Below, one piece after another: positions 7,638 through 19,167 of a stretch of 64,000 nt of DNA. A program made the translations under genes and the position numbers. Under the pieces are notes generated by a model. It was not told where the DNA came from. It ran no database searches and was given only the letters and a program-made list of their open reading frames with translations. Origin of the DNA: an uncultured Christensenella sp. Its GTDB lineage: Bacteria > Bacillota > Clostridia > Christensenellales > UBA1242. Position 1 is the first letter of the stretch; each line of letters opens with the position of its first letter. The stretch is from the NCBI GenBank assembly GCA_949282135.1, contig CASDOR010000006.1, positions 1 through 64,000 of the forward strand. The letters are read 5' to 3'.

Positions 7638-10600
7638 AAAAAGAGAGTAGTAAACCAAATTTTATAGCAAATGAAAAGGAAATGTTAAAGTTTTGGAGTG
7701 AAAATAAATGTTTTGACAAACTTGTCGAAAAAAATAAAGGGCATAAGAGATTTAAGTTTCTTGATGGTCCAATTACAGCAAATAATAGATGCGGTGTCCA
7801 CCATATCTGGGGTAGGACTTTAAAGGACATTACAATTAAATATAATGCAATGAAAGGTTACGACCAAATGTACCAAAATGGGTTTGACGCACAAGGTATG
7901 TGGGTTGAAGTGAATGTTGAAAAGGAACTAGGCCTCAATGGTAAGCCTGAAATTGTAAATTATGGTATTGACAACTTTACAAATAAATGCATGGAAAGAG
8001 TGCAGTATTTTGCAAATGAAATTACTAATCAATCAATTCGTATGGGGCAGTGGATGGATTGGAAGAATAGCTATTTTACAAATACTGACAACAACATTTT
8101 GGCAATTTGGCATTTTCTTAAAGTTTGTCATGAGAAAAACTATATTGTTAAGAAAAACCGTCCTATGGCATGGTGCCCAAGATGTGGGACTTCTCTTTCT
8201 GAACATGAAATGGCAGGCAGTTATCACGATGTGACACATACCGCAATTTTTGCTAAATTTCCTGTCATTGGTAAAGACTTTAAAATGCTTGCATGGACAA
8301 CTACTCCTTGGACTTTAAGTGCAAATACAGCACTTGCAGTTAATCCTGAGTTTGACTATGTAAAGATATATTTAAAAGAAAGTAAAGACACGGTAGTACT
8401 TTGTCGTGATACTTTAAAAGTTATTAAGGAAGACTATGAAGTTTTAGACGAGTTTAAGGGCGAAAAACTCGTTGGACTGAAATATGAGACTTGTTTCCCA
8501 GAACTTCCAGAACAAAATTTTGAACATACAATTCTCCCTTGGGATGAAGTAGATAAGGTTGAGGGAAGCGGAGTCGTGCATATTGCACCAGGATGCGGGG
8601 CAGAGGACTTTGAGCTTGGTAAAAAATACAATTTAAAAGAATATTGCCCAATAGATGAGCAAGGTGTTATGTTAGATAATACTGGTTTTTTAAGTGGCAA
8701 AAAGACTACTGACGTTGTCGACCTTGTGATAAATAGATTAAAGAGTGATAATAAACTTTACTATGCACATAAGTACACGCATAGCTATCCTTATTGCTGG
8801 AGATGTAAAACCGATCTTGTATACAAACTAATTTCAACTTGGTATATTGCACTTGATGACCTTAGACCAAAACTACTTAGTGCGGTTGACGAAGTTACGT
8901 TCCAACCTGAATATGGCAGAAAAAGAATGACTGACTGGCTTAATAATATGGGGGACTGGAATATTTCTAGAAGTAGGTTTTATGGACTTCCACTTCCATT
9001 CTACGTTTGTCCTAAATGTGGGAAGTTACATGTTATAGGTAGTCTCGAGGAACTTTCTCGTCTTGCAGTTAATAGTGAGGCAATTGCTCGAATACCAAAT
9101 CTTCATAGACCTTGGATTGATGACATTAAAATTAAGTGTCAAAATTGTGGTGAAACAGTAGAAAGAATAAAGGAAGTAGGGGATTGCTGGCTTGACGCTG
9201 GTATTACACCTTTTAGTACAAAGAAATACTTTGAAGATAAGGAGTTCTTTAAAAATAATTTCCCAAGTGACTATGTGTGTGAGATGGTAGAGCAGATTAA
9301 ACTTTGGTTCTACTCAATGCTTGTCATGAGTGTGGTTTTGACAGGGCGCGCACCATATAAAAAGATTGTCACACACCAATATGTTAAAGACGAAAATGGT
9401 AATGAATTCCATAAAAGCGGTGGGAATGCACTTGATAGTGACGTTGTCGCAGATAAGGTTGGAGCTGACACTATTAGGTATCTTTATGCTGGGGCAAATA
9501 TTACAAATGATATGCGTTTTGGCTTTACTTTAACTGACGAGGCAAGAAGAAAGCTAATGAATTTCTGGAATGCGTACGTGTTTTATAATACTTATGCTTG
9601 TATTGACAATCCAGATGTTGAGAATTTTAAACTAGATTATAAAAATTTAACTCTTACTGACAGGTGGCTTCTTGAAAAAATTAATAAGTTTATTCGTGAT
9701 AGTGATGCAAGTTTTAGCGAGCATAAGAGTTATCTTGTTGTCAAAGATTTTGAAAATTTAGTGGATGAGGTCACAAACTTTTATATTCGTGTTAATCGTA
9801 AAAGATTTTGGAAGAGTGATGACAAAAAAGACCAAATGACTGCTTATACTTGTCTTTATAAAGCACTTAAAGCAATGCTTCAAGTTATGGCACCTATTAT
9901 ACCTTTTATGACCGACTATATTTGGCAGAATTTAGTTAGAAGTACAGAAAAGAATGCTGAAATAAGTGTACTTCTAAGTGATTTCCCAAAAGAAATTGAA
10001 GGTGTTAAAGAAAGTGGAGTAATTGACGATGTGTCAAAAGCTCGTGAAGTTATTGCTATGGCGATGAGGCTTAGGAATGAAAAGGGATTAAAAATCAAAC
10101 AGCCACTTAGAACAATGTATATTTTAGCAAATGCCGACTTTGAGAAAGCAGTTGTCAATCTAATGGATATTGTAAAGGACGAACTTAATATTAAAAATAT
10201 TGAGTTTGAGAAAAATACCGACAAATTTAATATTCCATATCTTACAGTTAATTTCAAGACTGCAGGTAGTGTATTAAAAGGCGAAGTGCAGGCTCTTAAA
10301 AATTATGTTTTAGGATTAAATGAGTCTAGCATGAGAGGTCTTGTTGAAATGTATAGAGAGGGAGAAGTCGAAGTACCTAAATTTGGAAAACTAAGTAGTG
10401 ACCTCTTTATGCTAAATTTAAAACCAAAAGAAGAATTTGTCATTTTGACAGAAAATAATGTTACTTTAGTTTTAGATACAACTCTTGATAAAGCTTTGAT
10501 GCTTGAAGGGGCTTATAGGGAACTTGTAAGGACTGCTCAAGTTTTAAGAAAAGAGGCAGATTTTAATATTGAAGACAGGATTGAAATGGATGTTGTGTCT

Positions 10601-12069: not shown

Positions 12070-13641
12070 CTAGTTGTCACTTACAAGTGCTTCGGTAGTT
12101 AGCATAGTGCGTACTATGCTACTTGCATTAGTTAGGGCACAAATTGATACTTTTGCTGGGTCAATTATTCCAAGAGCGTACATATTTCCAAATTTGTTAT
12201 TAAGTGCGTCAAAACCATAACTTATCATTTTTTTTGAGTTTATTTTCTTAAATACAAGTGCTGGATTTATTCCTGCATTTTCAAGTATTTGAGTTATAGG
12301 GGCTGTAAGTGTTTTAATAACAATGTCATAGCCTGCCATTATTTCTTTGTTTTTTTCTTTTGATTTTGCTTTTTCAACTACTTTTGCACATTTATATAAG
12401 CTCACTCCACCACCTGGAAGTATGCCAAGTGAAAGGGCAGAGTTCGTTGCAGAAATAGCATCTTCAATCCTTAGTTTTTTCTCTTTTTGCTCAATATCAC
12501 TATTAGCACCAACTAAAATACTTGCAATTCCGCCAGTTAGATTTGAAAGCCTTTTAATTAATTGTTCTTTGTCATAGTCTATATTTGTGCTGGCTATTTC
12601 GCTCTTTATTAAATTTATTCTTTTACTTAGCCTATCTTTATCTTTTGTGTTTGAAATAATAAGAGTATTGTCTTTTGTAATCTTAACATGTTTTGCCTCT
12701 CCTAAATTTTGAAGCGTAACACTTGTTAAACTCATGCCTTTTTGAGAAGACACCACCTCGGTATTTGTTAGAGCTGCAATATCTTCTAAAATTGCGAGTT
12801 TCTTATCTCCGTATAAAGGTGCTTTAATAACACACGCACTAAATGTTTTTCTAAGAGTATTAACAATGATTGTTGATAATGCTTCATTTTCTATATCATC
12901 ACAAATTATAATTAGAGGTCTACTTGTGCTAATTATTTTTTCAAAGATACCAAGTAGCTCGTTAAAGTTGTTTATTTTTTTGTCGGTAATTAAAATGTAT
13001 GGGTTATCAAATTCTGTAATGCCTTTTTCTGCATTCGAAGCAAGATATGGGGAAAGGAGTCCAGAATTTATAGTCATGCCTTCTTGTTTAATAAGCTCAG
13101 TTTTATTTGTCTTAGAATCAAGAAGAGTAATATTACAGGTTGAGTTGTATTCATAAGCTTCTTTGATGAGCCTGCCTACTTCGCTAGAACCTGATGATAT
13201 AGTTGCAATATTTTCAATGTCTTTTGAATTTTTTATTGGTCTAGAATTTTTTTCGAGGTAGTCTACCGCAATTTTTGTCGCGTTATCAATTCCAATATTA
13301 AGTAATATTGGACTATAGTTTTTACTAGCATAATCAAGTCCCACTTCAAGCATTTTATCAGCTAAAACAATCGCTGTTGTAGTCCCATCTCCCGCGTCAT
13401 CATTTGTCTTTTGACAAACTTCTTTTATTAGTTTGCACCCCATGTTTTCAAATTCATCTTCAAGTGTAATTTCACGTGCAATTGTTACGCCATCATTTGT
13501 AATAAGTGGGGTAGAGTATTTTCTATCTAGTACAACATTTCTTCCTTTTGGACCTAAGGTAGTTTTGACTATACTCGCTATTTTTTTTGCACCAAGTCTT
13601 AATTTTTCACGTGCGTTTGTGCTTTCAATGATTTTTTTCAT
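12070..13641 (-). CDS. groEL: Chaperonin GroEL, divergent
   Basis: GroEL forms the double-ring folding chamber with GroES. The 523-residue protein keeps the ATP site (TLGPKGRNVVLD near 28-39 and GDGTTT at 84-89) and the LEDEFENMG region. It is about 20 residues shorter than usual and ends in ALVSDN with no GGM-rich tail. Many apical-domain positions differ from common GroEL. An AAAGGAGGA ribosome site precedes the ATG, and the gene overlaps groES by 4 bases. No CIRCE operator was found upstream, so HrcA control is not supported here. It could be the only GroEL or an extra copy. Confidence 0.85.
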   Translation of the reverse strand: MKKIIESTNAREKLRLGAKKIASIVKTTLGPKGRNVVLDRKYSTPLITNDGVTIAREITLEDEFENMGCKLIKEVCQKTNDDAGDGTTTAIVLADKMLEVGLDYASKNYSPILLNIGIDNATKIAVDYLEKNSRPIKNSKDIENIATISSGSSEVGRLIKEAYEYNSTCNITLLDSKTNKTELIKQEGMTINSGLLSPYLASNAEKGITEFDNPYILITDKKINNFNELLGIFEKIISTSRPLIIICDDIENEALSTIIVNTLRKTFSACVIKAPLYGDKKLAILEDIAALTNTEVVSSQKGMSLTSVTLQNLGEAKHVKITKDNTLIISNTKDKDRLSKRINLIKSEIASTNIDYDKEQLIKRLSNLTGGIASILVGANSDIEQKEKKLRIEDAISATNSALSLGILPGGGVSLYKCAKVVEKAKSKEKNKEIMAGYDIVIKTLTAPITQILENAGINPALVFKKINSKKMISYGFDALNNKFGNMYALGIIDPAKVSICALTNASSIVRTMLTTEALVSDN

Positions 13642-13913
13642 TTTTCCTCCTTTAAAATAAGTAAAATATCTTGTAAGTCTATTATTATGTAATCTTTGTT
13701 TTGAATTTTAACGTCTATTGCTGTGTGTTCTTCATAAATAAATTTGTCGCCAAGCCTTATATCTAGTGCTACATTTTCACCTTCTGGCAAACATATGACC
13801 TTAGCTCGTCTAACATTTGTTTCGCTACTTGCTAGACATATTCCACTTGTTGTTATGTTGTTATTAGCCAGTTTTTCAGCAAGTACCCTACTTCCAAGAA
13901 CTTTAAATTCCAT
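13638..13913 (-). CDS. groES: Co-chaperonin GroES, divergent
   Basis: The 91-residue protein fits the GroES fold: an N-terminal KVLGSRVLAEKL strand, a mobile-loop region with the TTSGICLAS segment, and the LGDKFIYEE strand. Sequence is diverged but length and gene order (groES-groEL) are right. An AAGGAGGA ribosome site precedes the ATG. It leads a two-gene operon whose promoter lies between 13914 and 14040; no CIRCE element is visible there. Confidence 0.8.
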   Translation of the reverse strand: MEFKVLGSRVLAEKLANNNITTSGICLASSETNVRRAKVICLPEGENVALDIRLGDKFIYEEHTAIDVKIQNKDYIIIDLQDILLILKEEK

Positions 13914-15082: not shown

Positions 15083-15922
15083 ATGGGTTTTAGTAGAGCA
15101 AATAAAGAAAAAAGAGTAGTTGTTATAACTGGTGCTTCTAGTGGAATTGGACTTGAACTCGCCAAACTTTACCTTGAACAAGGGGATGAAGTGATATGTG
15201 TTTCAAGGACAAATAAGGAGAATGCTCAGAATTTTTATAAATGTGATATTGGACTTGAAAGTGAGGTTAAGGACACTTTTGATAAGATTGCAAGAGACTA
15301 CAAAAAAATAGATTTGCTCATTAACAACGCAGGTTTTGGCTTGTCTGGGGTTTTAGAACTTACTCCAACTAGCGACATTAAAAATCTTTTTGACGTAAAT
15401 TTTTTTGGAGCTTTTTACGTGTATAAGTACGCACTTAAATACATGCCAAAAAAATCAAAAATAATTAATATTTCATCTGTATGTGCTTTTTTCCCTTTGC
15501 CATATAGAGGGGTTTATTGTGCAAGTAAATCAGCACTTAATTCCTTGTTTTTTTCGGCACGAATGGAGTGTAAAAACTTAGGCATACAAATTACAAATAT
15601 TTGCCCAGGTGACACAAAAACAAATTTTACAAAAAATCGTGTTAAGATACTATCTACTAACGAGAGGTATGAAGAAAGAATAAAAAATGCCACTCTATCT
15701 CTTGATAGCAGGGAAGATAAACGTATGAGTGCTACCTCTGTTGCAAAAAAAATTTATAAAATAGGTGAAAAGAAAAAATTACCAAGTTATAAAATTATTG
15801 GCTTTAAGTATAAAACGCTACTATTTTTTATGAGATTTTTACCATTTAATGCTTTGCTTTATTTTACTGAGAAGTATTTTGGTGGAAACAAACCAAACAA
15901 AGGAGGGGAGAAAAGTGGCTGA
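15083..15922 (+). CDS. Short-chain dehydrogenase/reductase
   Basis: A 279-residue classical SDR. The cofactor motif TGASSGIG lies at residues 16-23, NNAG at about 80-83, and the catalytic Ser, Tyr and Lys appear as NISSVCAF and YCASK. The C-terminus has an amphipathic or membrane-contacting stretch near LLFFMRFLPFNALLYF, seen in some lipid-acting SDRs. The substrate is unknown. It overlaps the next gene by 8 bases, and the next gene's AAAGGAGGGGAG site lies inside its end, so it is likely cotranscribed with the DAC-like cassette. Confidence 0.8.
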   Translation: MGFSRANKEKRVVVITGASSGIGLELAKLYLEQGDEVICVSRTNKENAQNFYKCDIGLESEVKDTFDKIARDYKKIDLLINNAGFGLSGVLELTPTSDIKNLFDVNFFGAFYVYKYALKYMPKKSKIINISSVCAFFPLPYRGVYCASKSALNSLFFSARMECKNLGIQITNICPGDTKTNFTKNRVKILSTNERYEERIKNATLSLDSREDKRMSATSVAKKIYKIGEKKKLPSYKIIGFKYKTLLFFMRFLPFNALLYFTEKYFGGNKPNKGGEKSG

Positions 15923-16955
15923 CAATCTATATTTTACAGAGGCGAAGGATACTGTTCTTAGGTTTATTGCTAAGGAGTATCCAACTATGCCAGAAAACCT
16001 TATTTCCATGCTTATAAATAGCTTTTATAAGTTTTGTAGTTATGAGGAAGAGGGGAGAGATATTAAGCCTAGAATTTTGTTTACTAGTAATATAGAACTA
16101 CTTGCTAAAAACATACCTAATTTTTTTAAATTGCACCTTTTTTCTGATGAAGATGAGCAGTATTTTAATTCAAGACTTAAGTCCCTTTTGATTTTTTGCT
16201 CAAATGATTGGACAACTTATATTGAGGTTAAAGACGGTGTGTTTAATTATGGAATATGTAAAGTCTTTAACAGCATAAAAGAAAAATCTTTATATAGCTT
16301 GATTTTTGAAAACGAGACACTCATGAACAATGAAAAGTTTAGTTTGATTTATCTTGACACAATGTCCTCTTATGCTATTGGACTTAGAGGAATAAGAGGT
16401 GGAAATATAATAATTAACTTTTCAATAAATGATTCAAACTTTTTAAATCGTGAAAATGTTATTAAAAGATTTGTCAACGCAAGCTTTTCAAAACTTAAAA
16501 CTACTAGAAACAAATTAAATGAAATTAAAATCTTGTATGAAAATATTTTAAAACGTGCAATAAATGATATTCATGGGGCGATTTGTGTCGTTGTAGATAA
16601 GGATTTTAAGGACACAAAAGGTTTTTTTAGTGATGGAATATGGCTTAATGAACCGATTGAATTTTCAAAAACTTTCCTAATGACAAGAAGTTATTCTGAG
16701 GCAAAACTCACAAATATTGCTGAACTTTTTATTTCAATGTTAAACTACGATGGTATTACTATTGTAGATAATGTAGGAAGAATTAGGGCATATAACGTCT
16801 TTATCAAGGCAGAAAAATACGCAAAAAAGAATATAATAGGTGGGGCGAGAAAACGGGCAGCGTATGCTGTTATTAACTCAAATATTAAAAAAATTGTTGG
16901 AGTATACTTCCACTCGCAAGATGGTGAAATCTTTTATGAGGAGGTAAAAAAATGA
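15915..16955 (+). CDS. Diadenylate-cyclase-like (DAC/DisA_N fold) protein with N-terminal sensor-like region
   Basis: The start is the GTG at 15915, set by the strong AAAGGAGGGGAG site; an upstream in-frame start lies inside the SDR gene. The 346-residue protein has an unknown N-terminal region (1-205) and a C-terminal region (about 213-346) that aligns by eye with CdaA/DisA catalytic domains: HGAICVVVD (220-228), GIWLN (241-245), NYDGITIVDNVGRIRAYNV (278-296), IIGGARKRAAY (307-317) and KKIVGVYFHSQDGEIF. The catalytic DGA is DGI (279-281) and RHR is RKR (312-314). It may make c-di-AMP or another nucleotide, or only bind one. It overlaps the next gene by ATGA. Confidence 0.6.
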   Translation: MADNLYFTEAKDTVLRFIAKEYPTMPENLISMLINSFYKFCSYEEEGRDIKPRILFTSNIELLAKNIPNFFKLHLFSDEDEQYFNSRLKSLLIFCSNDWTTYIEVKDGVFNYGICKVFNSIKEKSLYSLIFENETLMNNEKFSLIYLDTMSSYAIGLRGIRGGNIIINFSINDSNFLNRENVIKRFVNASFSKLKTTRNKLNEIKILYENILKRAINDIHGAICVVVDKDFKDTKGFFSDGIWLNEPIEFSKTFLMTRSYSEAKLTNIAELFISMLNYDGITIVDNVGRIRAYNVFIKAEKYAKKNIIGGARKRAAYAVINSNIKKIVGVYFHSQDGEIFYEEVKK

Positions 16956-18241
16956 ATATAACTTGGGACAATGATAAAAAGAAAACTAATATTAGTGACC
17001 TTGCATTTAAGGATTTAATTTCTGACCCCACAGAGTTATCTTCTTTAAATGTTGACGATAAGGACTTTATATTAACTTCGTTTAACGCAAAAATGTACAA
17101 TTATGTAGTTGAATATGTTTATAATAAGGCCGTAAAAAAATTGCAAGATAGTATTTTTAGACTGGGGGACGAGTTAATTGTAAATCTAATCCACTGGATA
17201 GATAGGACTTTTATTTCAAACTTCTTTGATATATTTGTTCTTAGACTTGCGTGTGATATTAACTTTATTTCAAAAGAAGAAAAACTTGTCATTTTGCAAA
17301 TTATTGAATATTTGCAAGGGAAGAAAGATTCCTTTAGTGACACTGAGGACATAAATAAAGAAAAAACGAAGTATTTTATTGTTTATTTGTATGAATCAAT
17401 ACTAAAAAGAGACTTTGACACAGTTATTAATAAAATAAATCAAATTATAGATGCTTTACAAACAAATCAAATAACAGTTGATGATGCGTCATATAAAGAA
17501 ATGCTTGAGGTTACAAATAAACATAAAAATATTCTTTTAAGGCTTATTTTTGCGATGGTTAAGGTTGAAATTTCAAAGGACAATAATAAAAGACTTAAAA
17601 CTTTAAGCCAAAATATGTCAAACTTAATTGTAGACCTTTGGGAAAGGACAAGTCTTAATGATAAAAAATTTTATTCATATTACTTAAAGACTTTATCGAC
17701 CGACTCTTCGGTTTATAAGGTACTCTCAGCTGTTTTAGGGAAGGTTAAGCTGATTGAGTTTACGACAGACATTAACATTGTGACAGATATACTTAAAAAT
17801 TGCCAAAGTATTTTGTCTTGTCATTATAGTGTAAACAATCAAAAAGACGAGACAGAGGGACTTATTAGGCTTCATGAGATAGAAGTTTACCCTAGATATT
17901 TCCTTCGTAGTGTTATTACTCCTTGTGTTGTTACTTTTCTTGGGGGTAATAATGGATATATTGGGACTTCAAGAGAAATTTCTAGTCAGATACTTGATGA
18001 AATAACAACTGAAAAATGGCTTTATTACTTTAAAAATTTCTTTTATCAAGACGATTTTATATTAACAACTTTAATTAATGTACCGGCATCTCTAAAGGAT
18101 TGGTGCGTAATTATAAAAAAATCAGGTGTTAGCGAAGAGGACATAGAGGACAAAGATATAAAAGAGTTAATTAAGTATTCTAAACAACAAAATTTTGACG
18201 AAATTAAGAGACTAGCTGAAAAAATTTACTATAAGGATTAA
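16952..18241 (+). CDS. Unknown protein coupled to the DAC-like gene
   Basis: The 429-residue protein is not recognised. It appears soluble and mostly helical, with no signal peptide or clear transmembrane segment. The central part (about 110-260) is rich in Lys, Asn and Ile helices. The last third contains a conserved-looking block around EIEVYPRYFLRSVITPCVV and LGGNNGYIG, then acidic helices. It overlaps the DAC-like gene by 4 bases (ATGA) with GAGGAGGT just upstream, so the two proteins are probably made together. A partner, target or regulator of the nucleotide domain is the natural guess, but nothing in the sequence proves it. Confidence 0.6.
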   Translation: MNITWDNDKKKTNISDLAFKDLISDPTELSSLNVDDKDFILTSFNAKMYNYVVEYVYNKAVKKLQDSIFRLGDELIVNLIHWIDRTFISNFFDIFVLRLACDINFISKEEKLVILQIIEYLQGKKDSFSDTEDINKEKTKYFIVYLYESILKRDFDTVINKINQIIDALQTNQITVDDASYKEMLEVTNKHKNILLRLIFAMVKVEISKDNNKRLKTLSQNMSNLIVDLWERTSLNDKKFYSYYLKTLSTDSSVYKVLSAVLGKVKLIEFTTDINIVTDILKNCQSILSCHYSVNNQKDETEGLIRLHEIEVYPRYFLRSVITPCVVTFLGGNNGYIGTSREISSQILDEITTEKWLYYFKNFFYQDDFILTTLINVPASLKDWCVIIKKSGVSEEDIEDKDIKELIKYSKQQNFDEIKRLAEKIYYKD

Positions 18242-18255
18242 AAGAGGATTTTTCT

Positions 18256-19167
18256 ATGATTAACATTAATGTTGAAGAGATAAATGAACTTGCGAAAGAG
18301 GACGCAAAAAAGGTTATAGAACTTGCTGAAAACTATTATCAAAATTTGCTTGTCGATGTGGCAGAAAAAATTGATAATTTGAATGTAAAAATCCTTCTTA
18401 TTTCTGGCCCTTCGTCTGCAGGCAAAACTACAACAAGTTTTAGGCTTCAAGAAGAGTTAAAAAAACATAATATTGCTTCACATGTTTTAAATATGGACGA
18501 CTTCTTTATTGATATGGATAAAATACCACTTAGAGAGGACGGCGAGCCTGATATTGAAAGTATTAATGCTTTAGATGTTGAGTGTATTAAAAAATGCCTA
18601 GGTGAAATACTTGATAAAAATGAGACTAAGACACCTCAGTTTGATTTTGTTTCGCATTCTAGACTTGATACTTGGGTTGATTGCAAATTAACCGGCAATG
18701 AAGTTATAATTATGGAGGGTATTCATGCCCACAATCCAAGTATTATTGACGGACTAAACAGTGAAAGAATTTATAAACTATACCTTGATTGTGATTCAAA
18801 GTTCTTTATAAAAGGAGAGGACACACTTTCTTCACGCGAAATACGACTTCTTAGAAGAATGGTAAGGGATGAAAGAGATAGAGGAGTAGATTACCTTGAA
18901 AGTATTGACATGTGGGATGACGTATGCAATGGGGAAGATAAAAATATTTTACCTTATAAGAGCTCTGCAAATTATGTGATTGATACAGTTTTTTCATATG
19001 AATTACTACTTTTTAAGTTTGTTACTGAAAATAAATTTAAGGCATATAAAGCAAATAAGGTTATTGCAAAGTATTTGGAAATTTTTGAAAACTGCGGAGT
19101 AATTAATGAAGATTTAGTGCCAGATAATAGTTTGTTACGTGAATTTATAGGTGAATTAAGCTTGTAA
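18256..19167 (+). CDS. Uridine-kinase-like nucleoside kinase
   Basis: The 303-residue protein has the Walker A motif GPSSAGKTT (about 54-62), then VLNMDDFFID, and an EGIHAHNP motif, as in the uridine kinase/PRK family. Later RRMVRDERDRG matches the lid region of uridine kinases. It lacks the N-terminal TGS/threonyl-synthetase-like domain that many clostridial homologues carry. It phosphorylates a nucleoside, probably uridine or cytidine. It follows the unknown DAC-partner gene by 14 bases with an AGAGGA site, so it may be in the same operon, and a terminator follows. Confidence 0.75.
   Translation: MININVEEINELAKEDAKKVIELAENYYQNLLVDVAEKIDNLNVKILLISGPSSAGKTTTSFRLQEELKKHNIASHVLNMDDFFIDMDKIPLREDGEPDIESINALDVECIKKCLGEILDKNETKTPQFDFVSHSRLDTWVDCKLTGNEVIIMEGIHAHNPSIIDGLNSERIYKLYLDCDSKFFIKGEDTLSSREIRLLRRMVRDERDRGVDYLESIDMWDDVCNGEDKNILPYKSSANYVIDTVFSYELLLFKFVTENKFKAYKANKVIAKYLEIFENCGVINEDLVPDNSLLREFIGELSL

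Follow-up and report, generated by a model that had tools for sequence, protein, structure and literature searches.

The locus analyzed here raises the question of what a protein resembling a diadenylate cyclase (DAC) does when it is encoded in tight coupling with a second gene in an uncultured Christensenella sp. Cyclases of the c-di-AMP type are known for their housekeeping roles. We analyzed a stretch of 64,000 nucleotides, referred to below as the window, from a metagenome-type assembly of 1.25 Mb. Its named near relatives are entered under Clostridia, Christensenella sp., or Christensenellaceae, and many of them come from gut, rumen, and other animal samples. An earlier interpretation made from the DNA letters (hereafter, the sequence-only reading) had placed a two-gene cassette at positions 15915–18241 of the window, and these coordinates were correct. 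The features of the locus are as follows.

15083..15922, plus strand: SDR-family oxidoreductase, upstream of gene 1, in a genus-wide operon
15915..16955, plus strand: gene 1, DAC-like protein of 346 aa with a GTG start (ORF, homolog, and structure comparison)
16749..16757, plus strand: codons D279-G280-I281, the site of the catalytic DGA motif of DACs (profile alignment)
16839..16862, plus strand: codons G309-G-A-R-K-R-A-A316, the site of the phosphate-binding GTRHRAA motif of DACs (profile alignment)
16952..18241, plus strand: gene 2, helical partner of 429 aa, a distant member of the PHROG 27609 family
18256..19167, plus strand: uridine-kinase/phosphoribulokinase-like protein, downstream of gene 2, in a genus-wide operon

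The GTG start of gene 1 is preceded by an AGGAGG-type ribosome site, which is kept across the genus. As the sequence-only reading had described, the junction of genes 1 and 2 is an ATGA overlap, the SDR gene (ending at 15922) overlaps the start of gene 1 by 8 bases, and the kinase-like gene starts at 18256, 14 bases past gene 2. The SDR gene is probably a chance companion of the DAC-like gene, because most other genera have no SDR gene at that place. Elsewhere in the window, a GroES/GroEL pair was seen on the minus strand (12070–13913); both proteins look diverged, and GroES, at 91 aa, is short.

To what extent gene 1 resembles DACs can be judged from both structure and sequence. An AlphaFold2 model built on 30 homologs (pLDDT 85.5) comprised an N-terminal alpha/beta domain (residues 1–190) and a C-terminal domain (about 190–346), and it is in this model that the C-terminal part has the DAC fold. 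When the model was submitted to Foldseek, the top 24 rows were all DisA, CdaA, DacA, or CdaM. VIA-align gave Z scores of 8.9–10.8 for all 40 DAC rows, over 116–125 residues within positions 180–346 of the model, and the best unrelated row had a Z of 3.2. At the sequence level, the Pfam DAC family (PF02457) was matched by nine of the 30 homologs (best E 5.4e-5) and was the sole family matched by more than two of them. A distant homolog from an unclassified metagenome-assembled genome (MAG; L159) matched it with an E of 4.6e-4 and 20.2 bits, against a curated cut-off of 27. Profile–profile alignment of the gene 1 family with DAC gave an E of 6e-4, compared with 0.12 for an unrelated helical profile used as a control, and paired DGI with DGA, ARKR with TRHR, and GGARKRAA with GTRHRAA. 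The gene 1 protein of the window, searched alone, had no match in Pfam, NCBIfam, PADLOC, or PHROGs, and its sequence had only chance matches in the PDB. The DAC resemblance is not a chance one. The sequence-only reading had claimed it for the C-terminus and had proposed a search for DAC matches as the check, and the claim is borne out both by the structural comparison, in which only DACs scored highly, and by the PF02457 matches among the homologs. We nevertheless refer to gene 1 as a DAC-fold relative and not as a “diadenylate cyclase,” because it falls below the Pfam cut-off and has neither DGA nor RHR.

In the window protein, the motifs are DGI (279–281), ARKR (311–314), GGARKRAA (309–316), and S-x-D-G (334–337). 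Among 73 distinct homologs, the DGA site read DGI in 70, DGA in two, and DGV in one, and GGAR[KRS]RA was present in all 73, as were the Asp at the catalytic position and both Arg residues. The alanine of DGA and the histidine of RHR, which were invariant in 27 canonical DACs, are replaced in gene 1, and the threonine of GTR has become alanine. The replacements of DGA by DGI and of RHR by RKR are thus as the sequence-only reading had described them, but they are not private damage in the window protein: because DGI is found in 70 of the 73 homologs and GGAR[KRS]RA in every one, they constitute a signature of the family, and decay in one genome was rejected as an explanation. The invariance of the Asp and both Arg residues indicates that selection keeps a nucleotide site. 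The model is weakest at residues 251–260 and 301–310 (block means near 60), close to the predicted site, so its fine geometry cannot be read from the model. By eye, S-x-D-G resembles the SEETG loop found in DACs, although it was not aligned with that loop in the mixed alignment. The N-terminal 190 residues contain an invariant Y-x-E-E (43–46), Trp, and Gly, and had no good fold match (best VIA row Z 3.2, within the whole-protein model); this domain could be a sensor. A link to DACNV was not confirmed: one of the 30 members matched it weakly (E 0.24), and a genome search gave no match, with the controls also silent.

Compared with canonical DACs (PF02457: DisA, CdaA/DacA, CdaS, and CdaM), gene 1 has the same fold over about 125 residues and shares the Asp-Gly of the DGA site and both arginines of RHR. 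It differs in having DGI for DGA, GGARKRAA for GTRHRAA, and a helical partner gene of its own, and also in its layout, in which the DAC domain is C-terminal and follows an unlike N-terminal domain of 190 residues, with no membrane helices. Whereas CdaA carries N-terminal membrane helices and is encoded in an operon with CdaR and GlmM, gene 1 has no membrane segment, and its neighbors are the SDR gene, the partner, and the kinase. In DisA, an N-terminal DAC domain is followed by a linker and a DNA-binding domain, whereas the DAC domain of gene 1 is C-terminal and reaches the end of the protein.

The partner encoded by gene 2 has an all-helical model (pLDDT 89.4) and no transmembrane segment. 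The sequence-only reading had recognized no family for it. The window protein searched alone had no match in NCBIfam, Pfam, PADLOC, or PHROGs; it is a distant member of an unnamed family, PHROG 27609, too diverged for a direct match. That family was matched by the partners in the Geobacter and prophage cassettes described below (E 1e-29 and 4e-22), and also by stand-alone relatives. Among the entries listed, Foldseek gave no confident PDB match for the partner fold (E at least 0.25), and the VIA Z scores of up to 8.8 to HEAT/ARM-like repeats lie in a range that, according to the tool’s own warning, may mean only a common helical arrangement. The stand-alone relatives (∼470 aa) were found on plasmids of Escherichia coli, Klebsiella, Lactococcus, Bacillus, Acinetobacter, Streptomyces, and Rhodococcus, and on viral contigs; 49 of 5,426 E. 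coli genomes had a match to at least 80% of such a relative. All 20 of the stand-alone relatives contained R-N-x5-H-P, a motif that, judged from its residues, looks like the HEPN RNase motif, and they matched HEPN and Abi_C weakly. This motif was missing from every cassette partner, including that of the window, and from a caspase-fused member. The cassette partner has no recognizable catalytic residues, and the HEPN motif R-x4-6-H was not found in it. The motif pattern suggests that the partner module may be toxic when it is alone, whereas next to an effector or a signal enzyme it may serve as sensor or adaptor. The stand-alone relatives on plasmids and prophages of many genera (L163–L168, L172–L186) are in themselves a candidate HEPN-type defense or toxin family. 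On the viral contig L171 (4194–6278 and 1018–4155), a partner relative is fused behind a caspase (Peptidase_C14) and adjoins a SIR2-linked prokaryotic Argonaute, a candidate new defense arrangement.

We examined how the pair is distributed in the family to which the window belongs. The partner lies directly downstream of the DAC-like gene in all 12 genomes of the genus, and the order SDR, DAC-like gene, partner, and kinase was seen in the eight genus contigs with clustered flanks (L100–L107). The pair is also present in three more of the family’s genera and, as described below, in every cassette outside the family, so that the sequence-only reading’s expectation of homologs with the same partner gene in other genomes was confirmed. 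The neighborhood is therefore conserved, but the coupling is not universal. Roughly half of the family’s genera carry the DAC-like gene, in a single copy each, and many of them keep it with no recognizable partner, which shows that the partner is not always needed. Partner-less DAC-like genes adjoin, for example, pheST-like or cardiolipin-synthase-like genes (named by sequence inspection only). In two genera, the DAC-like gene and the cardiolipin-synthase-like gene flank the partner; in others they adjoin each other, suggesting loss of the partner. Some partner-less DAC-like proteins (L018, L022, L025, L026, and similar ones) have charged, low-complexity C-terminal tails of 40–110 residues after the DAC domain, and others have no such tails.

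Most Firmicutes need a canonical diadenylate cyclase. PF02457 was missing from 58 of the 59 genomes of the window’s family (G000–G058), and the sole exception was on a contig of 3,184 bases in one genome, which is probably contamination; in other families of the order, it was present in 37 of the 40 sampled genomes. Both the canonical DAC and the DAC-like gene are missing from about half of the family’s genera, so the DAC-like gene is not essential to the family. The DAC-like sequences of the family form one clade (support 97/94), and a single acquisition is therefore sufficient to account for them, with long outside branches leaving the exact root unsure. Within the genus, gene 1 is the best-conserved protein of its neighborhood, with 76–93% identity, compared with 37–88% for the neighbors SPOR, Lsp, RluD, SepF, SDR, kinase, and partner. 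Its dN/dS was about 0.03–0.07 where dS, which is near saturation, could be estimated. These results show that the DAC-like gene is under strong, core-gene constraint in the genus. No c-di-AMP riboswitch was detected in the family or in the sampled rest of the order, and no convincing PstA was found in the family. Gene 1 is therefore not an obvious stand-in for CdaA, although it is under core-gene constraint.

Beyond the family, the pair is rare, absent from all 397 other genomes sampled in the phylum, but it was coupled in every case found (seven cassettes: L156, L157, L159, L160, L161, L162, and L169). In the tree, the nearest relatives of gene 1 outside the family are these plasmid, prophage, and MAG cassettes; for the contexts taken from MAGs, the usual risk of binning errors applies. 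The cassette of a Geobacter MAG adjoins a PD-Lambda-5-type pair. In the unclassified MAG (L159), the third gene directly after the pair encodes a SLATT_5 membrane effector (E 7e-35), and on a Vibrio plasmid an overlapping third gene encodes a 204-aa protein with membrane segments and is followed by a restriction–modification (R-M) system. A cassette on an Agrobacterium plasmid adjoins a CBASS-type oligonucleotide cyclase (E 9e-120) and a patatin, and in two related prophage contigs the pair lies between an XRE-ImmA gene and an integrase. A Desulfosporosinus MAG (L157) also carries the pair; some distance after this cassette, at 8579–9241, is a protein weakly like AbiGi (E 7e-4). An effector-like third gene was thus present in two of the seven outside cassettes, and none was present in the window. 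No relative of the Vibrio cassette was found in E. coli, phage genome records contained neither gene 1 nor the partner, and single-sequence searches of viral contigs gave no further mobile relatives.

The contexts invite comparison with known defense systems. A DAC was tied to phage defense by experiment only in 2026, in DS-2, which consists of a CBASS phospholipase, a cGAS, and a DAC, and in which DAC catalytic mutants lose phage defense (PMC13092281). The cassettes are like DS-2 in having a DAC-fold protein in a defense setting, and the Agrobacterium locus combines genes of these three kinds with the partner. DS-2, for its part, is described as three genes with no partner of the PHROG 27609 type, and the window has neither a phospholipase nor a CD-NTase. 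No DS-2-like E. coli record was seen among the canonical DACs on plasmids. CBASS combines a CD-NTase with an effector; among the scanned neighbors in the window there is no CD-NTase, which adjoins the pair only in the Agrobacterium relative. The SLATT_5 gene directly after the pair in L159 recalls SLATT-effector conflict systems (CBASS-like or reverse-transcriptase-linked), but that operon has no CD-NTase or reverse transcriptase; the DAC-like protein would take the role of signal enzyme. The window has no SLATT gene.

The explanation that we favor, and to which we give about an even chance, is that the cassette is a sensor-gated dinucleotide-signaling module of phage-defense origin that was domesticated as a core gene in the window’s lineage. 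It builds directly on the DAC fold of gene 1 and its fixed motifs, on conservation of the coupling, on the defense-type contexts, and on the single family clade and strong constraint; from these we infer the catalysis, its product, sensing by the N-terminus and partner, the link to an effector, and the function in defense. Gene 1 would be a DAC-fold nucleotidyltransferase, two copies of which, placed face to face like those of DisA and CdaA, would link a pair of NTPs to form a cyclic dinucleotide. Its pocket is altered but fixed, with DGI, GGAR-x-RA, no Thr, and no invariant His, and this suggests that the product or the choice of base differs from that of plain c-di-AMP. Sensing of a trigger and gating of the cyclase would fall to the N-terminal domain together with the helical partner. 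In the mobile cassettes, the target of the signal would be an effector, for instance the SLATT protein or the small membrane protein that the third gene encodes. Within the window’s family, the pair would have been acquired once, the canonical DAC lost, the DAC-like protein placed under strong constraint, and the partner dropped by several sublineages. Some findings weigh against parts of this explanation. The DGA alanine, the RHR histidine, and the GTR threonine have been replaced, and a nucleotide-binding protein that is not an enzyme would show equal conservation of the Asp and Arg residues; an effector-like third gene accompanies only two of the seven outside cassettes and is missing from the window; roughly half of the family’s genera do without either a DAC or the DAC-like gene; the core-gene constraint in the window’s lineage is unlike that of a typical fast-evolving defense gene; and PADLOC recognizes neither protein.

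The main rival to a synthase is a DAC fold that only binds. As a catalytically dead receptor, gene 1 would bind a nucleotide signal, either a phage- or host-made dinucleotide or the NTP level, and would switch the partner. The loss of the DGA alanine and the RHR histidine fits this, as do the absence of a canonical DAC from the lineage and a kept pocket that binding alone could explain; the partner could in principle be the effector, given that its relatives carry the HEPN-like motif or a caspase fusion. However, the catalytic-position Asp and both Arg residues are invariant in all 73 homologs, two natural members still have DGA, and the cassette partner has neither the HEPN-like motif nor recognizable catalytic residues. 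In DS-2, moreover, defense needed the DAC catalytic residues (PMC13092281). We consider a receptor possible but rather unlikely.

A housekeeping role, in which gene 1 makes c-di-AMP in place of the CdaA that the lineage has lost and is regulated by the partner, would agree with the near-complete absence of canonical DACs from the family (58 of 59 genomes, against presence in 37 of 40 from other families of the order) and with a single-copy gene that is the most conserved of its neighborhood in the genus. We hold it to be improbable, for about half of the genera have neither protein, no convincing PstA occurs in the family, neither CdaR nor GlmM lies beside gene 1, and the nearest outside relatives are plasmid, prophage, and MAG cassettes. 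The absence of c-di-AMP riboswitches from the family also counts against it, although this is a weak point, since they are equally absent from the sampled rest of the order. Still harder to credit is a toxin–antitoxin-like pair: as a degenerate HEPN-type module, the partner would be the toxin or its scaffold, and the DAC-like protein would control it. The tight overlap of the genes and the stand-alone relatives on plasmids and prophages, with their R-N-x5-H-P and weak HEPN and Abi_C matches, would suit such a pair. That motif is missing from all cassette partners, however, and the DAC-like gene stands alone in many genera, which is unexpected for a controller with no toxin.

Returning to the domesticated signaling module, a more far-reaching form of it, which we offer only tentatively and regard as doubtful, is an immune system with a DAC-fold synthase in place of a CD-NTase. 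It would use a non-standard cyclic dinucleotide, gating by a helical pseudo-HEPN protein, and SLATT or other membrane effectors, and one small-genome gut family that gave up c-di-AMP would have domesticated it as a core regulatory gene. A role for a DAC in defense is already known from DS-2 (PMC13092281), and the cassette of a divergent DAC-fold protein and its partner is a variant set apart from DS-2 by description. If the signaling module is what we propose, a divergent DAC-fold family with a dedicated partner, spread over several phyla and on plasmids and prophages, would represent a new signal and gating principle in bacterial immunity. Its fixation in a lineage with no canonical DAC would then be a natural test of how a defense cyclase becomes a core gene, and the same lineage would also show how these Firmicutes live without c-di-AMP.
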